A stretch of DNA of 23,017 nt from Mageeibacillus sp. UBA1243 (lineage in GTDB: Bacteria > Bacillota > Clostridia > UBA1212): NCBI GenBank assembly GCA_002308595.1, contig DBWH01000029.1:1-23017 (forward strand), in the 5' to 3' direction. The first letter of the stretch is position 1. The number at the start of each line of letters is the position of its first letter. The notes below the pieces were generated by a model that saw only the letters and a list, made by a program, of their open reading frames with translations, did no database searches and had not been told where the DNA came from. Both the position numbers and the translations under genes were made by a program. Below are positions 3,427 through 17,316 of the stretch, in pieces.

Positions 3427-4773
3427 ATGGGTTTTAAACGAAAAAGCAATAAGGGTATCTCTCTTCGAACTGTAAACCTTTTGATGATCATTGGGACGGT
3501 TATTACGGCCGGTCTGATGTTCTTTTCCACAATCCATCTGGCTACGGGATTTCGCAATCTGACGGAGACATCGGAGCGGGTGGTTGAACTGAGGAAGGAT
3601 GCGGTCGAGCTGATGGACGGATCCGATTATCTGACCGAATGCGTTCAGCGGTTTGCAGTTCTCGGGGATCGCAGTTTCCTTGACGCTTACTTCGAGGAGG
3701 CTTTTCAGGCAAAACGCAGGGAAGAAGCTGTCGCCAAGATGGCTGACGGTGTCGGCAATACGGCGGCTCTTGATAAACTGAGGAGTGCATTGGCGGGTTC
3801 TCTGGAACTGATGAACAGGGAGTACTACGCAATGAAGCTTGTGGCAGACGCCAAGGGCTACACGGACTGCCCCAATGAGGTGCTTAATGTGAAGCTTTCG
3901 GAAGAGGACGAGGCTCTGTCGCCGGCTGAGAAAATGCAGCGGGCTTCCGCGATTGTCCACGATGACGGGTACTATTCTCAGAAAAACCGTATCCGGGACG
4001 ATATGAAAGCAAGCCTCAGCGAGCTTGAGGTCATGGCAAACGACACTTATTCATCCGCGCTTAAGTCACTTGGCGGTGAGATGACGGTTGTCAGGACTGT
4101 TATCATTATCCAGACAATCGGTATCATCATTACGGTGGTGCTCACGTCAAGGCTCGGCATCCATCCGGTTCTTAACGCGGTGAATCAGATTAAGGCGGAC
4201 AGCGCCATTCCGGAGATGGGAGCGGAGGAGTTTCGCTACCTTGCCCGCGCATACAACAAGATGTACGATGTGTACAAGAGCAGTCTGAAGCGCCTGAATT
4301 TCAAGGCGTCGCATGATGAGCTGACGGGCGCGTACAACAGGTCGGGTTATGAGCTGCTCCTTTCGAGCGTAGACCTGAACAATGTGTACATGCTGCTGTT
4401 TGACGTTGACAATTTCAAAGAGATTAACGATTCGTACGGGCATGAGATTGGCGACAAGGTGCTTGTGAAGCTTGTGCGCGTGCTGAAGTCCAAATTCAGG
4501 TCGGACGACCATATCTGCCGCATCGGCGGTGATGAGTTTGTGGTTTTCCTGGTGCATTCCGCCAAAATCGACAGGGAGCAGCTTGTCGAGAAGGTTAACG
4601 GTATTAACCGTGAACTCGCCAAGGACGACGACGGCCTGCCGGTAATCTCCGTCAGCGTAGGTATCGTACACGGAAGCGAATCGTCGGACGCGGAAGATCT
4701 TTTCAAGAAAACCGACGACGCGATGTATCAGGCGAAGCAAAAAGGAAAGCAGACGTATTCTTTTTACGGATAA
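3427..4773 (+). CDS. Membrane-anchored GGDEF diguanylate cyclase with I-site
   Basis: Makes c-di-GMP from two GTP. The 448-residue protein starts at ATG 3427 after AAAGGA. A transmembrane helix at about 15-37 and another at about 221-241 bracket a helical extracytoplasmic sensor region of about 180 residues of no type I recognise. A short HAMP-like or linker helix follows, then the GGDEF domain (about 285-448). The domain contains DELTGAYNRSG, FDVDNFKEIND (metal-binding Asp at about 326), GHEIGD and an intact GGDEF at 367-371. RSDD at 358-361 lies five residues before it, which is the canonical RxxD inhibitory site, so product feedback is expected. The next gene, also a cyclase, starts 62 nt downstream on the same strand, so co-transcription is likely. 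Confidence 0.93.
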   Translation: MGFKRKSNKGISLRTVNLLMIIGTVITAGLMFFSTIHLATGFRNLTETSERVVELRKDAVELMDGSDYLTECVQRFAVLGDRSFLDAYFEEAFQAKRREEAVAKMADGVGNTAALDKLRSALAGSLELMNREYYAMKLVADAKGYTDCPNEVLNVKLSEEDEALSPAEKMQRASAIVHDDGYYSQKNRIRDDMKASLSELEVMANDTYSSALKSLGGEMTVVRTVIIIQTIGIIITVVLTSRLGIHPVLNAVNQIKADSAIPEMGAEEFRYLARAYNKMYDVYKSSLKRLNFKASHDELTGAYNRSGYELLLSSVDLNNVYMLLFDVDNFKEINDSYGHEIGDKVLVKLVRVLKSKFRSDDHICRIGGDEFVVFLVHSAKIDREQLVEKVNGINRELAKDDDGLPVISVSVGIVHGSESSDAEDLFKKTDDAMYQAKQKGKQTYSFYG

Positions 4774-4835
4774 TAACGGCGGACGGCTTTTGCGGTACGT
4801 TGTTAATATGTAAACTGCATGCAGGTGGGTTGCCG

Positions 4836-5912
4836 ATGTTTGTAATCAGCTTTATAACCGAGCACTATATCATGCTGATGGAGCTTGTCGGGCTGTTTAT
4901 TCTGCTCGTCATATGCTCCCATTTCTCTGCGCGCATCAAACGACTCACGCGTGCGGTCGGAATACTGCTCGTGCTGACGTCAATAATGTCAGAGCTCGAA
5001 AAGTGGATGCAGACGTTTGACAAACTGTGCATCGCAAGACCCTTGCTCAACGCGGCAATCTACTCGATCTACCCTGTAATTCTCATACTGACCATGCTGA
5101 TCACCACCGAAAAACTGCTTACTGCGAGACAGTATGTGCTTTTGCTTCTTGGCGAGGCGGTCAGCGTACCGCTATGTTTTACATCGCAGTGGACGCACTG
5201 GATGTTCTGGGTGAGCGAAAATAACGAGTATATGTACGGCCCCATAGGCAAGTGGCCGTATGTCCTTTTCGGCTTCTACAGCTTCATATTCTTCGCTATG
5301 AACATGTACTTCCTGAGGCGCTCGTCGGTGTTCAACAGGATAATTGCCGGCTTCATCGTAACCGCTCCGCTCGTCGGTGTTGCGTTCTACGCGGGCACGG
5401 GTTATTCGAACGACTACACGACCCTGTTTACGTCAGCGATAATCCTCTACTACCTGTTCTTCTACATCTACCTTGCAAGGATTGACGCGCTCACGGGTCT
5501 TCTCAACCGCAAGAGCTTCTACCAGGACATCAAGACACACGTTTCAAGCATCAACGGGGTCGTCTCCGTTGACATGAACAACCTGAAATACATAAACGAC
5601 AACTTCGGACACGACGCGGGTGACACTGCAATCAGGACTGTCGCCAAGGTGCTCGGCGAGTCGAGCGGACGGCTTGGAACGGCTTATCGCATTGGCGGTG
5701 ACGAGTTCGTGATACTCTACAGAAACGCCCAGGAGTCCTACGTTTCGGAAAAAATCGCCAATATGCGCGACGAGCTCGCCAAGACCTCCTACACGTGCGC
5801 GTTCGGCTACGTGATGAGGGCGAACGGGATGACTGTTGACGCGATGCTGCACGACGCGGACGAGAAAATGTACGAAAACAAGGCGCTCATTAAGGGCAGT
5901 GCCCCGAGGTGA
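4836..5912 (+). CDS. Polytopic membrane GGDEF diguanylate cyclase lacking the I-site
   Basis: The 358-residue protein starts at ATG 4836, preceded at 6 nt by AGGTGGG; a TTG at 4800 is in frame but has no binding site. About six hydrophobic helices occupy residues 12-215, with almost no soluble sensor. The GGDEF domain follows directly (about 215-358): RIDALTGLLNRKSF, VDMNNLKYINDNFGHDAGD and GGDEF at 287-291. The inhibitory-site position reads RLGT (279-282) instead of RxxD, so feedback inhibition by c-di-GMP is probably lost, in contrast to its neighbour. The protein ends shortly after the DADEKMYENK helix, a normal GGDEF C-terminus. Membrane sensing of an unknown signal is inferred. Confidence 0.92.
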   Translation: MFVISFITEHYIMLMELVGLFILLVICSHFSARIKRLTRAVGILLVLTSIMSELEKWMQTFDKLCIARPLLNAAIYSIYPVILILTMLITTEKLLTARQYVLLLLGEAVSVPLCFTSQWTHWMFWVSENNEYMYGPIGKWPYVLFGFYSFIFFAMNMYFLRRSSVFNRIIAGFIVTAPLVGVAFYAGTGYSNDYTTLFTSAIILYYLFFYIYLARIDALTGLLNRKSFYQDIKTHVSSINGVVSVDMNNLKYINDNFGHDAGDTAIRTVAKVLGESSGRLGTAYRIGGDEFVILYRNAQESYVSEKIANMRDELAKTSYTCAFGYVMRANGMTVDAMLHDADEKMYENKALIKGSAPR

Positions 5913-5984
5913 AACGGGCCGGAATTTTAAAGGGCTAAATCAGACAAAAAAATCGAATAATGCTCACGGGAGAAGAAGACTCTG

Positions 5985-6020
5985 TCCGTTTAAACGGATT
6001 GAAAAGGAGCCTCTTTTTTT
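5985..6020 (+). terminator. Possible weak terminator after the cyclase pair
   Basis: A 14-bp palindrome (TCCGTTTAAACGGA, 5985-5998) is followed 15 nt later by AAAAGG/TCTTTT pairing and seven Ts (6014-6020). The stem next to the T-tract is weak, so termination is uncertain. The 173-bp gap between genes holds nothing else that I recognise. Confidence 0.35.
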
Positions 6021-6085
6021 ATAAAATTACAGGTACCCGATTATTTGAAAAAACAGCTAAGACCTTAAGATAAAGGAGAGAAAAC

Positions 6086-8347
6086 ATGGCAAGGCGTTTT
6101 GTCGCGGCTCTTGTGGCTGCTTTGATTTTTGCAACGGTTCTCGGAGGGTGCGTGAAGACTGAAAAGCCGAAAGATACGGTCACCGCGGGACAGATCGGCG
6201 TGCTTAAGGACGAGGACTCCGGCGACGTCTTCTTTGACATTACCATTGACGGGTTCAATGCGCTCGGCTTTGACTTTGGCGACAGCGTGAACGTCTCTTT
6301 CGACAACGGCAGGGAACTTAAAGATATTCCCTATTATTCGGGATATTACGTGCCTGTCGGCGAGACTCTTGTCCTCGGCTCTCCGGGCTACCCGCACGTT
6401 GCGGTTTCGATAAACTACGGCGCGGCGACCTGGGAAGAATTCGGCATGAAGGACGACACAAAGGTCACTGTGACTCTTAACGAAAAAGGTAAGTACAAAG
6501 CGACCGAGGAGTTTTGCGCGCTTGACTATTCAGACGACAGGGCGAGCTTTAAATCCGACGAAATGTTCGCAAATTTCCGCGAAATGAAGGGCGGAAACAT
6601 TGCTGCCGCCAAGTTCTACCGCTCAGCGTCCCCGTGCGACAACAGGCGCGGCCGTGCGTCAATAACCAATGCTCTGACGGAGGCCGCGGGCATTAAATTT
6701 GCCCTTAACCTTTCAGACAATGAAACCAAATACACCGCCCACACGGAAGCTGAAGGATTTGACTCGGTTTACTACGACAACCTTTACAAAAACGGCGGCG
6801 TGCTTCTGCTTGGACTTAACGCAAACTACCGCTCGGACGACTTTGTCCGCACAGTTTCAGGAGCGCTCCTTGAAATGACGTCCCACGGCGGACCCTGCCT
6901 CATCCACTGCGTTGAGGGCAAGGACAGAACCGGTTTTGTGTGTGCACTCATGCTCGCTCTTTCGGGCGCATCGTCAGAGGAGATTGTCGATGACTACATG
7001 ATCACATATTACAACTATTTCGGCATCACCAAGGAGAGCGCCCCCGACATGTACAACGCAATCCTCCGCGACGTTTACAGCTTCTTTTACTGCATGTGCG
7101 GTGTCGATAAAGACGCTGATATAGGGGCGCTTGACCTTAAGCAGGGCGCGAAGAACTATCTGAAGCGCGGCGGCCTGACCGATGAAGAGATTAAAACCAT
7201 TGAAGATTACCTCGTTAAGGCTGATGAGGCGGAGTGCAGGATTGAGGCGGTTTACATTGGCGTCAAGGATTACGGCGCTCCGGAGACCAACAAGGACAAT
7301 AAAAACGACTTTTCATACCGCTTTATGATAGGCGGTGAGGAGCAGATTCTCAAAATCGACAACGGCACAAAAGACGCCGACGGAAACTCCGACTATCCGA
7401 TCCAGAATGCTCTGAAAGAGGGCTACACCTACTATATAACGGTCGAAGACGGCAAGGTGGTCTCCGTATCCGAACAGAAGGAAGACGTCGTTTTTACGCC
7501 TCTTATTAATGGTACGCCCGGTTTGAAGACCCTTGGCAATTTCCTGAAGACTGCCCTTGAGCCCGTGGGAACAACGCTTTATGTTTACGGAGGCGGCTGG
7601 GACTGGCAGGACGAAGGAGCGTCTGTGCAGGCGAGAAGCATTGGCGTGTCCCCGGATTGGGTCAGATTCTTTAACGCCAATGACGAAAACTACACTTTCA
7701 AAGAGAAAAACGGCGACCCGGAGCTTGCAGATCCCACGACAAGCTACTACGCATACGGCGGCTACAACGAGTATTACTATGCGGGACTTGACTGCTCGGG
7801 CTACCTCGGCTGGGTCATTTACAACACAATGGAGACCGAAAGTCTCAAGGAAGGCTACGTTGGCGGTTCGACGGGATTCGCCAAGAGGCTCTACGGAAAA
7901 GGCTGGGGCATCTGGACGCAGGATATCGCGTTCCCCAACGGCAAAAACGGCTATGAAATGAAGCCTGGCGATATTATGAGCATCAACGGCCACGTTTGGA
8001 CATCGCTCGGAACTTGCAGCGACGGAAGCGTTGTGCTGGTTCATTCAAGTCCGTCAAAGAGCAGAACCGGTCAGCCGGGAGCGGGCGTAATGATAAGCGC
8101 GATAGGAACGTCGACAGACTGCGAGGCTTACGTGCTTGCCGATAAATATATGGCCAAATACTACCCTGAGTGGTATGAGCGCTACCCAATCTACCTCTGC
8201 AGCCCGGAAGTTTACTTTACGTTCACGGGCGAAAATGCTGGAAGGTTCAGCTGGGACGTCTCGGATTCAGGCATTCTGAAGGATCCTGACGGTGTGCAGA
8301 AAATGACTCCGGAAGAGGTTCTGAAGTTCCTTTTTGACGAGAAATAA
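6086..8347 (+). CDS. Lipoprotein with tyrosine-phosphatase-like and NlpC/P60-like domains
   Basis: The 753-residue protein starts at ATG 6086 after AAAGGAG. Residues 1-22 are a lipoprotein signal (basic MARR, hydrophobic core, lipobox LGG-Cys22), so it is exported and membrane-anchored. Residues about 35-140 (GQIGVLKDEDSGDVFFDITI, LGFDFGDSVNVSF) resemble the C-terminal domain of SAM hydrolases (DUF62). Residues about 155-385 are a Y_phosphatase3-like domain with the P-loop HCVEGKDRTG (C275, R281 of Cx5R) and a preceding FYRSASP strand typical of this family. Residues about 490-720 are an NlpC/P60-like papain-fold domain with C570 in GLDCSGYLGW, H636 in NGHVWTS and H653 in LVHSSPS. Dephosphorylation outside the cell and cleavage of cell-wall peptides are inferred from motifs. 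No close functional precedent comes to mind for all three parts together. Confidence 0.85.
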   Translation: MARRFVAALVAALIFATVLGGCVKTEKPKDTVTAGQIGVLKDEDSGDVFFDITIDGFNALGFDFGDSVNVSFDNGRELKDIPYYSGYYVPVGETLVLGSPGYPHVAVSINYGAATWEEFGMKDDTKVTVTLNEKGKYKATEEFCALDYSDDRASFKSDEMFANFREMKGGNIAAAKFYRSASPCDNRRGRASITNALTEAAGIKFALNLSDNETKYTAHTEAEGFDSVYYDNLYKNGGVLLLGLNANYRSDDFVRTVSGALLEMTSHGGPCLIHCVEGKDRTGFVCALMLALSGASSEEIVDDYMITYYNYFGITKESAPDMYNAILRDVYSFFYCMCGVDKDADIGALDLKQGAKNYLKRGGLTDEEIKTIEDYLVKADEAECRIEAVYIGVKDYGAPETNKDNKNDFSYRFMIGGEEQILKIDNGTKDADGNSDYPIQNALKEGYTYYITVEDGKVVSVSEQKEDVVFTPLINGTPGLKTLGNFLKTALEPVGTTLYVYGGGWDWQDEGASVQARSIGVSPDWVRFFNANDENYTFKEKNGDPELADPTTSYYAYGGYNEYYYAGLDCSGYLGWVIYNTMETESLKEGYVGGSTGFAKRLYGKGWGIWTQDIAFPNGKNGYEMKPGDIMSINGHVWTSLGTCSDGSVVLVHSSPSKSRTGQPGAGVMISAIGTSTDCEAYVLADKYMAKYYPEWYERYPIYLCSPEVYFTFTGENAGRFSWDVSDSGILKDPDGVQKMTPEEVLKFLFDEK

Positions 8348-10868: not shown

Positions 10869-11480
10869 ATGAACCGGATCGTATCAAAAATCGGCGCCGC
10901 TGTGGTTTCCGCAACAGTTTTTCTGTTTGCGGTTTTCCTGATATTTGACATGCTTTTCTGGTCATACCTCGTCTGTATGTTCCTGGCGATCGGCTACGTT
11001 ATCCTCGCTGCGGGACTACAGCACGAGAGCACCGAAGACAGACGCGTTGCCGCCAATGCAGGCCTTGCGTTTGCGGCCGTCTACGCAGTCCTGATACTTA
11101 TCGTGTACTTTGCGCAGACTACAAGCGTGAGGCTTGAGGGTCTCAGCGAGCAGACCGCAAAGATACTCGACTACAGAAACGGCGGCCTGCTCTTTAACTA
11201 CGACCTTCTCGGATACGGAATGATGGCTCTTTCGACCTTCTTCATAGGCCTTTCGATGAAGGCTGCGACAAAGCTCGACAAGTGGCTGAAGATATTTCTC
11301 ATGGTACACGGGGTGTTCTTCCTGAGCTGCTTTATAATGCCTATGACTGGTGTTTTTACCGGTATGTCGGCAGGCGGCTCCGGCAAGGGCGGGACGATAG
11401 CTCTTGTCATCTGGTGCGCGTATTTTCTGCCGATCGGAGTATTGGCGTTTTTGCACTTCGGGAAAAAGAAAAACACTTAA
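10869..11480 (+). CDS. Six-helix integral membrane protein of unknown function
   Basis: The 203-residue protein starts at ATG 10869 after CGGAGGG. I do not recognise the family. Hydrophobic helices lie at about 8-28, 31-50, 64-84, 109-130, 140-160 and 175-195, with a glycine/serine-rich loop (GMSAGGSGKGG) between the last two and a lysine-rich C-terminus (FGKKKNT), which implies a cytoplasmic tail. There are no catalytic motifs. It follows the thioesterase by 28 nt and is the last gene before the mobile element. Confidence 0.75.
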   Translation: MNRIVSKIGAAVVSATVFLFAVFLIFDMLFWSYLVCMFLAIGYVILAAGLQHESTEDRRVAANAGLAFAAVYAVLILIVYFAQTTSVRLEGLSEQTAKILDYRNGGLLFNYDLLGYGMMALSTFFIGLSMKAATKLDKWLKIFLMVHGVFFLSCFIMPMTGVFTGMSAGGSGKGGTIALVIWCAYFLPIGVLAFLHFGKKKNT

Positions 11481-11538: not shown

Positions 11539-11559
11539 TTGCGTAAAGAGCCAAAAATC
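11539..11559 (+). repeat. Remnant right end of the 171-bp element
   Basis: These 21 bp are identical to the last 21 bp of copy 2 (11712-11732) and nearly identical to the corresponding end of copy 1. They are separated from the start of copy 2 by only TC (11560-11561), so two element ends abut as CAAAAATC-TC-GATTTTTG. A -10-like TATAAT (11532-11537) lies immediately before it and may belong to the original promoter of the downstream operon. Confidence 0.7.
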
Positions 11560-11561
11560 TC

Positions 11562-11732
11562 GATTTTTGAGCTATTTTTGCGTGCGCGACCCCGAAGATG
11601 TATGAATATACTTCGAGCGGGGAGCTCGCGCAAAGCAAGCCGCAAGCAATAGTCGAAAGACACCTTGTGGGTATTATGAAGACAGTTCTTGTTTTGAGCT
11701 AAGTATGCGGCTTGCGTAAAGAGCCAAAAATC
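11562..11732 (+). mobile_element. MITE-like 171-bp element, copy 2
   Basis: Full-length copy, opposite in orientation to the one at 8687-8857, same length, about 89% identical by eye, with the same GATTTTTG...CAAAAATC ends and internal stem-loops. Flanks are TC (left) and AT (right), so no matching 2-bp duplication is seen, consistent with insertion next to an older copy or with later recombination. Its last 21 bp overlap the first seven codons of the TerB-family gene. In reverse frames both copies can be read as a similar peptide containing ALRELP and HLRGRARKNSSKI, which I regard as a by-product of the repeat, not a gene. Confidence 0.88.
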
Positions 11733-13610
11733 ATCTGTACGGAGAAACAGGCTGTGGAACTTTCCGACTTAACCTATTATGCGAAGGAAAAATACAATAT
11801 CGAAGAGGAGCACAAGTGGCCTGAGTATCCGAACTTCTCGGTGCTTTCACATCCGCAGACCGGCAAGATGATCGCACTGCTGATGAGGTACTGGAACAGT
11901 GACCTTGGCGAGTTCAATGAAATCTGCGACCTGAAATGCGGCAGCATACAGATCCGCGTCTCCGTATATCCGTACATAAGAAGCTCTTTCCGCGTAAAAG
12001 GAGACAAATGGAGGGGTATCATTTTCAACCGGCGCACAGACCCGGAGGTGGTGCTTGAACTGTTCGACAGTGCCGTGCGCCTTGAGACAGAATACGGCTG
12101 CACGTTGGTCCTCGCAGCCGATGACTTAAAACGATGGACTCACAGGGACACACCCTTGCCTTTTTCAAACGGCGCGCCTTCGGAAACCCGCACAAGAAGC
12201 AGTATTCCCGAAAAAATACGCCAAATGATGCGGCTTTACGAATACAGGAGCAAGTCGGATTTCCACAGGGCGAGGAACTTTTACCGCCAAGGCAAATTCA
12301 TGGAAGACTATGAGGACGACGTCCCGTGGAACGAGGAATTTGTCTGCTACTTCCCAACCTACCACGACATGACCGTGAACCAGCTCCGCGGCTACTTCAC
12401 CTGGCGAAAGAAAATCCGCCAAGGCATCTTCGAGCCGATCTCGACCTCGGCCGCTTACGTTTACATCTACGAGCTTTTAAATGGTATCGGCGCGCGGACA
12501 TTTACCGAGAGGGTTGAAAAGCTCAGGGCTTTTGAAAAGGGATACGTTGACGCGGGCTTTGGCGACAGAAGAATGCGCAAATTCATTCATGAGTGGCTTT
12601 TTGACCTTTGTGTCATCGGTAATCTCGACAGGGAGACGACCGGCTTATACATTGACAGCGATATCACGGAATACGACAATGCCCTTGGCGTGTTGATGAA
12701 CCCCTCCGGTGCTTCGGATGCGGACGTCTTCGCGGCGCTCTTCCGGTTCGGCGGCAAAAATACTCTTGAGTCGGACTCGGTCACGTCTGACCCGTCACGG
12801 GCGGCAAGAGTTTTCTCAAACAGCTGGAGGAACATTCAGCGGGACTGCAAACGTTCGAAAAGGAGCTTTTTTGAGATCTGCTTCGGCGCGCGCAAGTCAA
12901 AACTCTGGCATCCTCTCGCCAAGGCAGTCTACTTCGACGAAGACCTTGGCGGTGACCGTGAATATGTGCTGAACGACTACCGCAAATACACATATCACAA
13001 CCTCTCCTGGCGCGAGAACTGCTTCTACAGGAACAATTTCTGCATTTTTATGCTTGATCAGTTTCTGAGAGAGACTGACCTCGTCATGAGGGCTCAAATG
13101 AAAACGGGGCGAAAGCTGAAAGAAAACCCCGATTACACCTGGATGCACCCGTTCATTCTGGAGGCTGTAAGGGAGGAGATTCTCTTTGAAAGAGAAGCCT
13201 CGCGGCCTAAGATTGAGATTGACATTTCGGGTCTTGAAAAGATAAGAAGAGACGCGGAAAAGACGCGGGACAGCCTGCTCACGGACGAGGAGCGCTTTGA
13301 AGAGATGCCTTCGAAAATACTGCAGGAAGAGTCTGAAGAAGTATTGCAGGATACAGCTCTGCAGGAGAAGCTTCAGGAAACCGAATCGCCTCTTTCGGAG
13401 GAGCAGAGAAGTATATTGGCGGCGCTCTTAAGAGAAGAAGACCCCGCGGAGATTATAAAGGCGTGCGGACTCATGCCGAGCATCGCTGCGGATCTTATAA
13501 ACGAGGCGCTTTACGAGATCATCGGCGACATTGCAGTCACGTGCGAAAACGACAGACTGGCGCTTGTCGAGGACTATATTGAAGATATTGCCGGAATTAT
13601 CGGAGGGTAA
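11712..13610 (+). CDS. TerB_N / TerB_C protein with N-terminal MmcQ/YjbR-like domain
   Basis: The 632-residue reading starts at TTG 11712, inside the mobile element; a GTG at 11754 with GGAG upstream is a plausible alternative start that avoids element sequence. Residues about 15-130 resemble MmcQ/YjbR (DUF419): YPNFSVLSHPQTGKMIALLM, EICDLKC, GDKWRGIIF, DPEVVLELFDSAVRL. Residues about 165-350 match TerB_N, with MTVNQLRGYFTWRKKIRQG and SAAYVYIYELLNGIG. An acidic, coiled segment (about 515-575) leads to TerB_C (about 575-632: LSEEQRSILAALL, INEALYEIIGDIAV). TerB-N/C proteins were described in Ter-type stress systems together with DNA-processing enzymes. The stop is 3 nt before the ATPase start and its GGAGGG end serves as that gene's binding site. 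Confidence 0.85.
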   Translation: MRKEPKIICTEKQAVELSDLTYYAKEKYNIEEEHKWPEYPNFSVLSHPQTGKMIALLMRYWNSDLGEFNEICDLKCGSIQIRVSVYPYIRSSFRVKGDKWRGIIFNRRTDPEVVLELFDSAVRLETEYGCTLVLAADDLKRWTHRDTPLPFSNGAPSETRTRSSIPEKIRQMMRLYEYRSKSDFHRARNFYRQGKFMEDYEDDVPWNEEFVCYFPTYHDMTVNQLRGYFTWRKKIRQGIFEPISTSAAYVYIYELLNGIGARTFTERVEKLRAFEKGYVDAGFGDRRMRKFIHEWLFDLCVIGNLDRETTGLYIDSDITEYDNALGVLMNPSGASDADVFAALFRFGGKNTLESDSVTSDPSRAARVFSNSWRNIQRDCKRSKRSFFEICFGARKSKLWHPLAKAVYFDEDLGGDREYVLNDYRKYTYHNLSWRENCFYRNNFCIFMLDQFLRETDLVMRAQMKTGRKLKENPDYTWMHPFILEAVREEILFEREASRPKIEIDISGLEKIRRDAEKTRDSLLTDEERFEEMPSKILQEESEEVLQDTALQEKLQETESPLSEEQRSILAALLREEDPAEIIKACGLMPSIAADLINEALYEIIGDIAVTCENDRLALVEDYIEDIAGIIGG

Positions 13611-13613
13611 CCA

Positions 13614-14942
13614 ATGACCGAAAACCAGAAAGTACCGAAACGGATATCACAGACCGTGCTCAATTCGCTCAAGGGAGGCGTTGTGCCGCGCATAGGGCTG
13701 CCGTACATTACCGTGGGCAGGAAAAGCGAGATTGAGGCGCTTTTGAGAGACGTTGACATTATAACGGAGGGCGGCGCGTCCTTCAGGTTTATTGTGGGAC
13801 GCTACGGAAGCGGAAAGACTTTCCTCCTCCAGACCATACGGAACTACGTGATGGACCGCGGGTTTATCGTTGCCGATGCGGACCTGTCGCCCGAAAGGCG
13901 CCTTCAGGGAACGCACGGGCAGGGCCTTGCGACTTACCGCGAGCTTATCGGGAACCTTTCGACAAAGACCAAGCCCGAGGGCGGCGCGCTGACGCTCATA
14001 CTTGACCGCTGGATAAGCGCTGTTCAGAGCGAGGCGCTGGCTGAGACGGGCCTTAAGCCGGGTGATCCTGCGCTTTCGGACGCGACGGAAAAGAAGATTT
14101 ATGCGGTGACTTCCGCGGTGAGCGAGCTTGTGCACGGCTTTGAGTTCGGAAAGCTCCTTGCGAAGTATTACCGCGCTTACGTTGACGGCAACGATGACGA
14201 GAAGGGCAAAGTGGTCAGGTGGTTTCGCGGCGAGTATGCGACGAAGGGCGAGTCGAAGGAGGCCCTTGGCGTCAACATAATCATCACGGACGACGACTGG
14301 TACGAGTACCTGAAGCTTTTTGCGGCTTTTTTCAGGCTTGCGGGCTACGCGGGCATGCTCATACTCGTTGACGAGCTCGTGAACATTTTCAAGATTCCGA
14401 ACACGATAACACGCCAATACAACTACGAGAAGATGCTCACCATGTACAACGACACGCTTCAGGGCAAGGCGAAATACCTTGGCGTTATCATGTGCGCGAC
14501 CCCGCAGGCGCTTGAAGACAAAAGGCGCGGCATCTACAGCTACGAAGCTTTGAGGTCAAGGCTTTCAGAGGGGCGCTTCTCAAGACCCGGAAGCCGCGAT
14601 CTCCTTGCGCCCGTCATAAGGCTCGAGGCTCTGACGGCTGAAGAAATGCTCGTACTCTGCGAAAAGCTCACGGGCATGCACGCGGGTCTTTACGGCTACG
14701 AGAGCAAACTCACGACGGACGACCTTGTGACGTTCCTGAAGATCGAATACGAGCGCATAGGCGCAGACACAAATATAACCCCGCGAGAGGTCATTCGCGA
14801 CTTTATTGAACTTCTGGACATACTATACCAGAACCCTGAGATACCGGTCGCCGAACTTCTTCGCTCCGAAGAATTCACTTACGCAAAATCCGAAGCGGTT
14901 TCCGACGAGGCCGAAACAGGTTACACGGAGTTCACGATATGA
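13614..14942 (+). CDS. DUF2791-family P-loop ATPase (BrxD-like)
   Basis: The 442-residue protein starts at ATG 13614 after GGAGGG. The N-terminus IGLPYITVGRKSEIEALLRD is typical of the DUF2791/BREX ATP-binding family. Walker A is VGRYGSGKT at 61-69, and Walker B is MLILVDE at 248-254 with Asp253/Glu254, then LVNIFKIPNTITRQYNYEKM. Later motifs are AKYLGVIMCATPQALEDKRRGI and ALRSRLSEGRF. This family belongs to the AAA-like/ORC-related ATPases and includes BrxD of type 2 BREX. The stop overlaps the start of the helicase gene by 4 nt (ATGA), so translation is coupled and the proteins probably work as a complex or in fixed ratio. Confidence 0.9.
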   Translation: MTENQKVPKRISQTVLNSLKGGVVPRIGLPYITVGRKSEIEALLRDVDIITEGGASFRFIVGRYGSGKTFLLQTIRNYVMDRGFIVADADLSPERRLQGTHGQGLATYRELIGNLSTKTKPEGGALTLILDRWISAVQSEALAETGLKPGDPALSDATEKKIYAVTSAVSELVHGFEFGKLLAKYYRAYVDGNDDEKGKVVRWFRGEYATKGESKEALGVNIIITDDDWYEYLKLFAAFFRLAGYAGMLILVDELVNIFKIPNTITRQYNYEKMLTMYNDTLQGKAKYLGVIMCATPQALEDKRRGIYSYEALRSRLSEGRFSRPGSRDLLAPVIRLEALTAEEMLVLCEKLTGMHAGLYGYESKLTTDDLVTFLKIEYERIGADTNITPREVIRDFIELLDILYQNPEIPVAELLRSEEFTYAKSEAVSDEAETGYTEFTI

Positions 14943-17191
14943 ACGTATTTGAGCGATACGCCCCATTTATACAGGATTACATATACCGCTCCGGCTGGCA
15001 GTGCTTAAGGGGCGTTCAGAACGCCGCAGGCGAGGCAATCTTCGGTACTGACGCCAATGTGCTCCTCACAGCCTCCACAGCCTCAGGAAAGACCGAGGCG
15101 GCGTTTTTCCCTATCCTGACGCTTCTTGAGGAGAATCCTTCTTCAACGGTTGGCGTCCTCTACATTGCGCCTCTAAAAGCGCTCATAAACGACCAGTTTG
15201 AGCGCCTTGGCGGTCTCTGCGAAGAGCAGGGCATAGAAGTCACAAAGTGGCACGGCGACGCGTCGCAGACGAAGAAAAGAAAGCTCCTTAAAAAGCCTTC
15301 CGGGATACTCCAGATTACGCCCGAGTCGCTCGAAGCGCTCCTTATCAACAAGCACATGGAGATACCGGCGCTCTTTGGCGATTTGAGGTTCATCGTCGTT
15401 GACGAGATACATTCGCTTCTGCGCGGCGACAGGGGCATGCAGACGTTCTGTCTTGTTGAGAGGCTCTGCAGGGTGGCAGGCTGCAATCCGCGAAGAATAG
15501 GTCTTTCGGCAACCATCGGAAATCCCGAGGGCGCGGGCAGGTTCCTCTCTTCCGGCAGCGGCAGAAAAACAATTATTCCCGAATTTGAGCGAGGAAAAGA
15601 AGTCTGGCGCCTTTCAATGGAGCACTTTTACAACACGCCTCCGCAGGCCGACGAGGGGAAAACTCTCAACGTGAAAACGCCTCTTCTGGAGCCTCCCACC
15701 GACAAGGCACCGCTCGCCGCCGACCCGGGAATAGGCTACGTTTTCGAACACACCAAGGGAAAGAAATGCCTTGTATTCACTAACTCGCGCGAAGAGTGCG
15801 AATCGGTCTGCCAATATCTCCGCCAATACTGCGAAGCAAGCAACGAACCTGACCGCTTCCTCATCCACCACGGCAACCTCTCAGCTTCATACCGCGAGAG
15901 CGCAGAGGAAGAGATGAAGGACGACGAATCACTTATGTCAGTCTGCGCAACGGCGACTCTGGAGCTCGGAATCGACATAGGAAGGCTTGAAAGGGCTTTC
16001 CAGATTGACGCGCCTTTTACCGTTTCGGGATTCCTCCAGCGCATGGGCCGTACCGGAAGAAGAGGCGACCCCGCCGAAATGTGGTTTGTCATGCGCGAAG
16101 ACCATCAGGAGGCGAGGGCAATGCTTCCTGACAGCATCCCCTGGTACCTCATTCAGGGAATCGCTCTCGTGCAGCTTTACATCGAAGAACGCTTTGTGGA
16201 ACCGCCAAGGGAAGGCCGCCTCCCGTACAGTCTCCTCTACCACCAGACAATGAGCACCCTTGCGTCTCACGGCGAGATGACTCCCGCAGAGCTTGCCTCG
16301 CGCGTGCTTTCGCTTAACTGCTTTAAAACAATAACCAGGGACGACTATAAAACACTGCTTCTTCACCTGATTGACACGGACCACATAAACCGCACCGAAA
16401 ACGGAGGACTCGTCACGGGTCTCACAGGCGAGCGGGTTATCAACAACTACAAGTTCTACGCGGTTTTTCAGGAAAATATCGAGTATACGGTACGCTCCGG
16501 TCCCGAGCAGCTCGGAACGATCGTCAAGCCGCCTCCGATTGGGGACAAGATTGCCATTGCCGGCCGCGTCTGGGTTGTCGAAGAGGTCGACCACAAGCGT
16601 AGAACCGTCGAGTGCACGCTTGTAAAGGGCAACATCCCTGCTTACTTTGGCGATGTCGCGGGTGACATCCATACAAGGATACTCGAACGCATGTACGGCG
16701 TGCTGGACGAAGACAAACACTATCCGTACCTGATGCCGCACGCGGCTGCAAGGCTCATGGACGCGCGCGACACGTTCGCAAAGTCGCTGATGGCGGAAAG
16801 ACCGCTGGTTAACATTGGCGGCAAGATGTGGGCGCTCTTCCCGTGGATCGGAACTTACTCGTTCCTGGCGCTTGAAAGGCTGCTAAAGATCGTCTGCAGC
16901 AAGAGGCTCGGTCTTAAGGGTCTTGAGTCGTCGCGCCCGTACTACATGCAGTTTACGATGGATGCGAGCGAGGAGGAGTTCTACAGGGTTGTCTGCGAAG
17001 AGGCCGAAAAGGAGTTTGACCCGTTAGAGCTTGTGTACCCGAACGAGGTGCCCGTTTTCGAAAAGTATGACGAGTACGTGCCCGCAGAGCTTGTGAGAAA
17101 AGGCTTTGCGCACGGCGTTCTTGACGCAGAAGACATGAAAAAGCACGTTCTTACGTGGAAGAAATTTGCCGGCAGGGGCAACGGAAACTGA
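14939..17191 (+). CDS. Lhr-like SF2 DEAD/DEAH helicase (BrxHI-like)
   Basis: The 750-residue protein starts at ATG 14939, overlapping the ATPase stop. Motif order: Q-like region near GWQCLRGVQ, Walker A ASTASGKTEA (GKT 50-52), motif Ia YIAPLKALINDQ, motif II DEIH (155-158) in FIVVDEIHSLLRGDRG, motif III LSATIG (189-194), motif IV CLVFTNSREECE, motif V TATLELGIDIG, motif VI QRMGRTGRRG (367-376). The C-terminal about 350 residues have Lhr-family-like winged-helix and DNA-gripping regions. Predicted 3'-5' ATP-dependent DNA or RNA-DNA helicase. Homologues called BrxHI pair with BrxD in type 2 BREX. A strong hairpin 16 nt after the stop closes the operon. Confidence 0.93.
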   Translation: MNVFERYAPFIQDYIYRSGWQCLRGVQNAAGEAIFGTDANVLLTASTASGKTEAAFFPILTLLEENPSSTVGVLYIAPLKALINDQFERLGGLCEEQGIEVTKWHGDASQTKKRKLLKKPSGILQITPESLEALLINKHMEIPALFGDLRFIVVDEIHSLLRGDRGMQTFCLVERLCRVAGCNPRRIGLSATIGNPEGAGRFLSSGSGRKTIIPEFERGKEVWRLSMEHFYNTPPQADEGKTLNVKTPLLEPPTDKAPLAADPGIGYVFEHTKGKKCLVFTNSREECESVCQYLRQYCEASNEPDRFLIHHGNLSASYRESAEEEMKDDESLMSVCATATLELGIDIGRLERAFQIDAPFTVSGFLQRMGRTGRRGDPAEMWFVMREDHQEARAMLPDSIPWYLIQGIALVQLYIEERFVEPPREGRLPYSLLYHQTMSTLASHGEMTPAELASRVLSLNCFKTITRDDYKTLLLHLIDTDHINRTENGGLVTGLTGERVINNYKFYAVFQENIEYTVRSGPEQLGTIVKPPPIGDKIAIAGRVWVVEEVDHKRRTVECTLVKGNIPAYFGDVAGDIHTRILERMYGVLDEDKHYPYLMPHAAARLMDARDTFAKSLMAERPLVNIGGKMWALFPWIGTYSFLALERLLKIVCSKRLGLKGLESSRPYYMQFTMDASEEEFYRVVCEEAEKEFDPLELVYPNEVPVFEKYDEYVPAELVRKGFAHGVLDAEDMKKHVLTWKKFAGRGNGN

Positions 17192-17207: not shown

Positions 17208-17246
17208 GCCAAGGGGGCTCCGGCTGCGAAGCCGGAGCCCCTTGGC
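17208..17246 (+). terminator. Strong stem-loop ending the TerB-ATPase-helicase operon
   Basis: GCCAAGGGGGCTCCGGCT (17208-17225) pairs with AGCCGGAGCCCCTTGGC (17230-17246) with one bulged G and a GCGA loop. No T-run follows, so it may be a 3'-end stabiliser or Rho-assisted terminator instead of a classical intrinsic one. Confidence 0.6.
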
Positions 17247-17316
17247 ATCATCAAAAGGCGCCTTAAAAGTTACAACTGAACATAAAATTGAACGGTCTGA
17301 GCCCCGTTTTTCTCTA

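Follow-up and report, generated by a model that had tools for sequence, protein, structure and literature searches.

The three coupled genes at 11754-17191 on the forward strand of contig DBWH01000029.1 (Mageeibacillus sp. UBA1243, assembly GCA_002308595.1), the whole stretch of which, 23,017 nucleotides (nt), was analysed and is called the window below, almost certainly make up a complete Shango operon (SngA-SngB-SngC), an anti-phage system that has already been described. An earlier note on this DNA had read them as a compact defence cassette of a TerB protein, a BrxD-like ATPase and a BrxHI-like helicase, which stands; the combination is not new, being that of Shango in the available text of PMC10250203. 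A new three-family cassette was rejected on the PADLOC matches to SngA, SngB and SngC, and no support was found for the genome-maintenance role that the note had also offered. Shango itself is not new; described here is a set of relatives that keep motor proteins of about 83% identity and have an SngA of only about 48%.

Identification of the Shango operon

In Pfam, SngA contains TerB_N (2e-23) and TerB_C (5e-17), both exceeding the cut-off, SngB is matched by BrxC_BrxD (3.6e-165), and SngC by DEAD (3.7e-28), Helicase_C (1e-18) and weakly by WH_Lhr. The PADLOC models separate Shango from its relatives clearly, since SngB reaches 623 bits with the SngB model vs 154 with BrxD, and SngC 922 bits with the SngC model vs 408 with BrxHI. 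The SngA model matches residues 150-630 of the open reading frame (ORF) read from TTG with 209 bits, below the 350 bits of the Klebsiella SngA. The same three models match a Klebsiella plasmid trio and a Paenibacillus trio. The TerB-type SngA, the ATPase SngB and the DEAD/DEAH helicase SngC of Shango are all found here, in adjacent A-B-C order.

The available text of PMC10250203 describes the Shango of Pseudomonas aeruginosa PA14 as an operon of a TerB-like protein, an ATPase and a DEAD/DEAH helicase, which in PAO1 cut the plating of many phages, not all, 10-100-fold and protected liquid cultures, an effect reported as strong; a separate report on E. coli Shango is cited there. The published anti-phage activity is that of other copies; the window copy is predicted to have it too. 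Shango is also among the systems identified in a rumen survey (PMC13356809, part available), and its mechanism is given as unknown in the accessible part of a 2026 review (PMC12926258); our literature search, which reached few subscription papers, found no paper on the mechanism.

Gene layout, domains and motifs

The three ORFs run from 11712 (TTG) or 11754 (GTG) to 13610, from 13614 to 14942 and from 14939 to 17191, with a 3-nt gap between sngA and sngB and a 4-nt overlap between sngB and sngC, in agreement with the earlier note (Table 1). That note had let the first gene begin at TTG 11712, which is corrected here to GTG 11754, probably the true start. GTG is preferred because a database copy 100% identical to SngA is 618 amino acids long, exactly as read from this codon, because 31 of 32 aligned SngA homologues begin at its column (P0053 alone reaches further upstream), because GGAG, a possible ribosome-binding site, lies shortly before it, and because TTG 11712 sits within a copy of a dispersed repeat. 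The 32 homologues, which were also used for folding, were chosen from 120 listed.

Table 1. Positions of the Shango genes, domains, motifs and adjoining signals in the window
Feature	Position	Strand	Evidence
sngA, 618-amino-acid YjbR-TerB_N-TerB_C protein, GTG start	11754..13610	+	PADLOC SngA E 4.4e-62; TerB_N, TerB_C
YjbR/CyaY-like double-wing domain, SngA residues 1-112	11754..12089	+	
TerB_N domain, SngA residues 147-306	12192..12671	+	Pfam
TerB_C domain, SngA residues 480-612, with a possible winged helix at its end (~546-618)	13191..13589	+	
sngB, BrxD-related ATPase, 442 amino acids	13614..14942	+	PADLOC SngB E 6.9e-188
SngB Walker A GRYGSGKT, residues 62-69	13797..13820	+	
sngC, superfamily 2 (SF2) helicase related to BrxHI, 750 amino acids	14939..17191	+	PADLOC SngC E 6.9e-278
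SngC motif II DEIH, residues 155-158	15401..15412	+	
SngC motif VI QRMGRTGR, residues 367-374	16037..16060	+	
GGAG, possible ribosome-binding site of sngA	11741..11744	+	sequence
Hairpin 3' of sngC, without T-run immediately after	17208..17246	+	folding, terminator scan

The N-terminus of SngA is a YjbR "double-wing" domain, with the CyaY-like double-wing fold by which YjbR is defined, and the window holds a Shango form whose SngA bears an extra DNA-binding-like domain. No YjbR domain was detected in the Klebsiella SngA or the Paenibacillus SngA. YjbR-TerB fusions are mentioned in the accessible part of PMC7641849 (2020), before the Shango reports of 2022-2023. SngA residues ~150-480 gave no clear fold match, a result uninformative on the fold because this region was not folded alone, and neither Pfam nor NCBIfam nor the fold searches revealed a catalytic domain in SngA. 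Within the YjbR domain, the cysteines of a C-x3-C at residues 58 and 62 are invariant across 33 aligned rows and could form a metal or redox site.

Besides the motifs of Table 1, SngB contains a Walker-B-like LILVDE and SngC contains SAT (motif III); the motif names (Walker A/B, II, III, VI) are those that presumably apply to these sequences. Walker A, DE.H and motif VI are also found in the Klebsiella, two E. coli and Paenibacillus trios, and the ATPase and helicase motifs of the window SngB and SngC are intact. The best-scoring solved relatives of SngC are chains 5V9X and 7LHL ("ATP-dependent DNA helicase"), which we take to be Lhr, and YprA; for SngB, the best E among solved structures was 0.09. 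Matches of Cas3 and Hef nuclease-helicase families on SngC cover the motor region, and no separate nuclease or methylase domain is present in the matches shown (for SngC the best 25 of 57 in PADLOC and the best 25 of 27 in NCBIfam). The earlier note had seen neither kind of enzyme, and, apart from what matches the helicase motor, Pfam, PADLOC and NCBIfam recognised none. SngC residues ~400-750 have only the weak WH_Lhr match, and a predicted SngC model from 18 sequences (the comparison set being 17 relatives) reached a mean predicted local distance difference test score of 49, too poor to judge, and was left unused.

Linkage and distribution of relatives

Genome contigs were scanned with SngB, and the best 80 of 444 relatives were kept. 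SngA lies within 300 nt of SngB in 75 of 76 loci having at least 600 bases upstream (L087 is without SngA), and SngC does so in 71 of 77 loci having at least 600 bases downstream; homologues of the three genes are thus usually adjacent. Five loci (L060, L089, L097, L106 and L107) have SngB-SngC spacings of 486-3253 nt, and L075 is without SngC. In L060, from a Bacteroidales record, an EcoRI-family restriction endonuclease and two DNA methylases stand between SngB and SngC (3753-6813), judged from sequence to be one defence system nested in another; L061, whose SngB is 99.5% identical to that of L060, is without this insert and has a gap of 183 nt. Two distant Shango-like loci, L037 (5572-10104) and L038 (10395-15097), have two tandem SngC-like helicase matches behind SngB.

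The distribution of SngB is patchy. Its model matches 22 of 97 genomes at E 0.001, own genome included, of which 17 are strong (E <=1e-140) and the remaining five lie between 1e-7 and 1e-62; among five congeners, two are matched. As helicases are widespread, the SngC search also picks up 13 of 14 control genomes; E < 1e-200 is reached by 12 of 31 genomes from the order. Records with the titles Bacteroidales, Bacteroidetes, Desulfovibrio, Flexilinea and Victivallales contain an SngB of 81-83% identity, a level that many Clostridia do not exceed, which suggests transfer, these records being metagenome-derived and mis-binning possible.

Relatives are also found on mobile DNA. SngB matches 692 of 72,556 plasmid records, all at below 60% identity, with at least 80% of the query covered in 683, and 542 of the matching plasmids are typed conjugative; the two examined, one conjugative and one non-mobilizable, both carry the full trio. 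In 437 of 5426 E. coli genomes, >=80% of the Klebsiella trio lies together in one place, and the three E. coli copies examined are in islands of a single type, which has a tyrosine recombinase next to tRNA-Arg. Phage records gave no match to SngB. The adjacency of the homologues and the relatives on plasmids and in E. coli integrase islands run counter to the outcomes that the earlier note had named as refuting its reading.

Fast divergence of SngA

Over 66 trios, the median identity is 47.8% for SngA, 84.2% for SngB and 82.7% for SngC, and in all 2145 pairs SngA is less conserved than either partner. These trios come from 73 rows with all three genes, 71 after removal of duplicates (L025 and L027 have the sequences of L070 and L069), by keeping those whose SngB shares >=75% identity with that of the window; incomplete or short ORFs were dropped. 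With log-identity ratios of ~4.2 (A/B) and ~3.8 (A/C), SngA diverges about fourfold faster than its partners. Between the window and congener G004, the identities are 56% (SngA), 87% (SngB) and 90% (SngC), and flanking genes range over 67-86%, apart from an 89-residue piece that reaches 88%; between Klebsiella and E. coli they are 81%, 97% and 88%. Positive selection is not indicated by the ratios of nonsynonymous to synonymous substitution (dN/dS), which are 0.13, 0.08 and 0.04 for SngA, SngB and SngC at dS > 1.

Turnover of the YjbR domain

A YjbR match lies near SngA in 66 of 92 loci with an SngA match, duplicates included; the other 26 are without it, several owing to a contig end. On a tree of SngB and SngC whose 71 rows include 18 that lack YjbR, at least 11 changes are needed, and 9 after leaving out four distant rows and L107 (192 bases upstream of its SngA match), when 13 of 66 rows lack YjbR. 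Because 200 shuffles gave 9-13 changes (mean 12.1) against these 9, the trait barely follows the tree, and the count is soft because 26 of 68 inner branches have support below 80. On this weakly resolved tree the relatives would have undergone nine or more gains or losses of the domain, the two being indistinguishable. In L067 and L094, DNA comparison revealed an in-frame internal loss of YjbR with the first codons retained. L064 and L067, which differ in having or lacking YjbR, are more than 90% identical in both SngB and SngC.

Chromosomal context and flanking sequence

At the window locus itself, two observations weigh against mobility. The trio of G004 has the same flanks, a thioesterase gene upstream and a GGDEF gene downstream (its upstream continuity was deduced from two contigs both ending in the thioesterase gene), so the site appears common to both genomes, and there is no integrase among the window proteins scanned with Pfam. 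An empty site is not definable, because the thioesterase gene is found in only one of five congeners (G004) and ORF 10869-11480 in none. Around the trio, the sole other defence-type PADLOC match among the proteins scanned is PD-Lambda-2_B (E 1.2e-37) at 1374-2456, a helix-turn-helix and ImmA/IrrE-type protein, and 10 proteins from the rest of the contig gave none. A 78-amino-acid ORF at 1141-1377 overlaps this gene and looks HigB-like by eye, with no Pfam match.

The dispersed intergenic repeat before sngA (11539-11735) contains a 21-nt direct repeat 173 nt apart and has 58 matches in the genome (1.82 Mb, 77% complete) including itself, several of them clustered on one contig; it has no Rfam match, and at the gathering threshold Rfam found nothing in the window. 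Downstream of sngC, the strong hairpin reported by the earlier note was borne out (-37.7 kcal/mol, z -6.4, none of 200 shuffles equally good). As a canonical intrinsic terminator it was rejected because no T-run stands directly behind it. It is absent from the output of the terminator scan, which gave a weaker terminator-like site at 17290-17309, in a total of 16 vs 8.3 expected by chance.

Proposed mechanism and alternatives

The explanation that we favour, and hold to be probable, is a complete Shango operon working as an SngA-guided, nuclease-free SngB-SngC motor; it is favoured because the matches shown reveal no nuclease or methylase domain apart from the motor. The BrxD-type ATPase SngB and the BrxHI-type SF2 helicase SngC would form a conserved ATP-driven DNA motor, and SngA would recognise phage DNA, a replication intermediate or a phage protein and direct or license this motor, so that phage DNA replication would be blocked via displacement or remodelling, not cutting. 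The comparison with BREX (bacteriophage exclusion) lies behind such a block. These particulars, with SngA as the recognition subunit and replication stopped without cutting, are put forward tentatively, as somewhat less than an even chance. The sensor or adaptor role that the earlier note gave to SngA is plausible only: the protein evolves fast and has two domains of DNA-binding type, one of them clear and the other with weak support.

SngA might instead be the effector, activated by SngB and SngC when they sense abnormal DNA, and its variability an escape from phage inhibitors. Hachiman, with the sensor helicase HamB and an effector nuclease, is a precedent (PMC12278908, in its available text), and fast evolution would also suit a protein that phage inhibitors target; the searches above recognised no catalytic domain in SngA, however, and its recognised N-terminal domain is of DNA-binding type, so we consider this unlikely. 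A more specific form of the SngA-guided motor would make SngA a fast-diversifying modular specificity subunit that programs the conserved nuclease-free motor, with YjbR as a recognition module that can be detached, its repeated loss in frame changing what this type of Shango attacks. HsdS of type I restriction has a comparable role. We regard this form as doubtful.

Phage DNA could also be degraded by a hidden nuclease site in the C-terminal half of SngC or the middle region of SngA. The scarcely matched SngC ~400-750 and the poor SngC model leave room for one, but nuclease models are absent outside the helicase motor among the matches shown, and we think this quite unlikely. It is improbable that plasmids or other mobile DNA are the primary target and phage defence secondary: the published plating effect is modest with some phages unaffected (PMC10250203), and some E. 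coli copies share islands with an antiplasmid system (PMC11096173, part available), but Shango is itself carried by plasmids typed conjugative and its protection of liquid cultures is reported as strong. A housekeeping DNA-maintenance cassette of the host lineage, for which the common site in two congeneric genomes and the single other defence-type match among the contig proteins scanned might speak, is very improbable given the patchy SngB, the relatives on plasmids and islands, and the activity published for other copies in PMC10250203.

Natural copies with and without YjbR, together with conserved motors, make the phage specificity of SngA and the contribution of YjbR directly testable.

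Comparison with known systems

YjbR/MmcQ (DUF419) proteins such as PSPTO_3016 share fold and sequence with SngA residues 1-112; in SngA, YjbR is fused to TerB_N and TerB_C. Ter-type stress operons have TerC/TerD/TerZ-type partners beside TerB. The window trio differs from them in this respect, as Pfam scans of 18 window proteins found no such families, the rest of the genome being unsearched.

BrxD and BrxHI of BREX type 2 are related to SngB and SngC respectively, and the available text of PMC12278908 has a tree that puts SngC, BrxHI, DruE and DpdJ together. BREX type 2 was rejected, since the window SngB reaches 155.5 bits against the NCBIfam BrxD equivalog cut-off of 350 and the Sng models score far higher; the window proteins scanned, which include part of the small ORFs, gave no match to PglX or PglZ.

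Compared with enterobacterial Shango, the window SngB is 41% and SngC 30-31% identical, and the window SngA has a YjbR domain and no Pfam TerB-core match, whereas the Klebsiella SngA has a TerB-core match and no YjbR match. The gene order and tight coupling are the same in the Klebsiella, Paenibacillus and E. coli copies examined, and the three protein families are those of Shango in Pseudomonas aeruginosa PA14 and Escherichia coli, as far as the accessible descriptions go.
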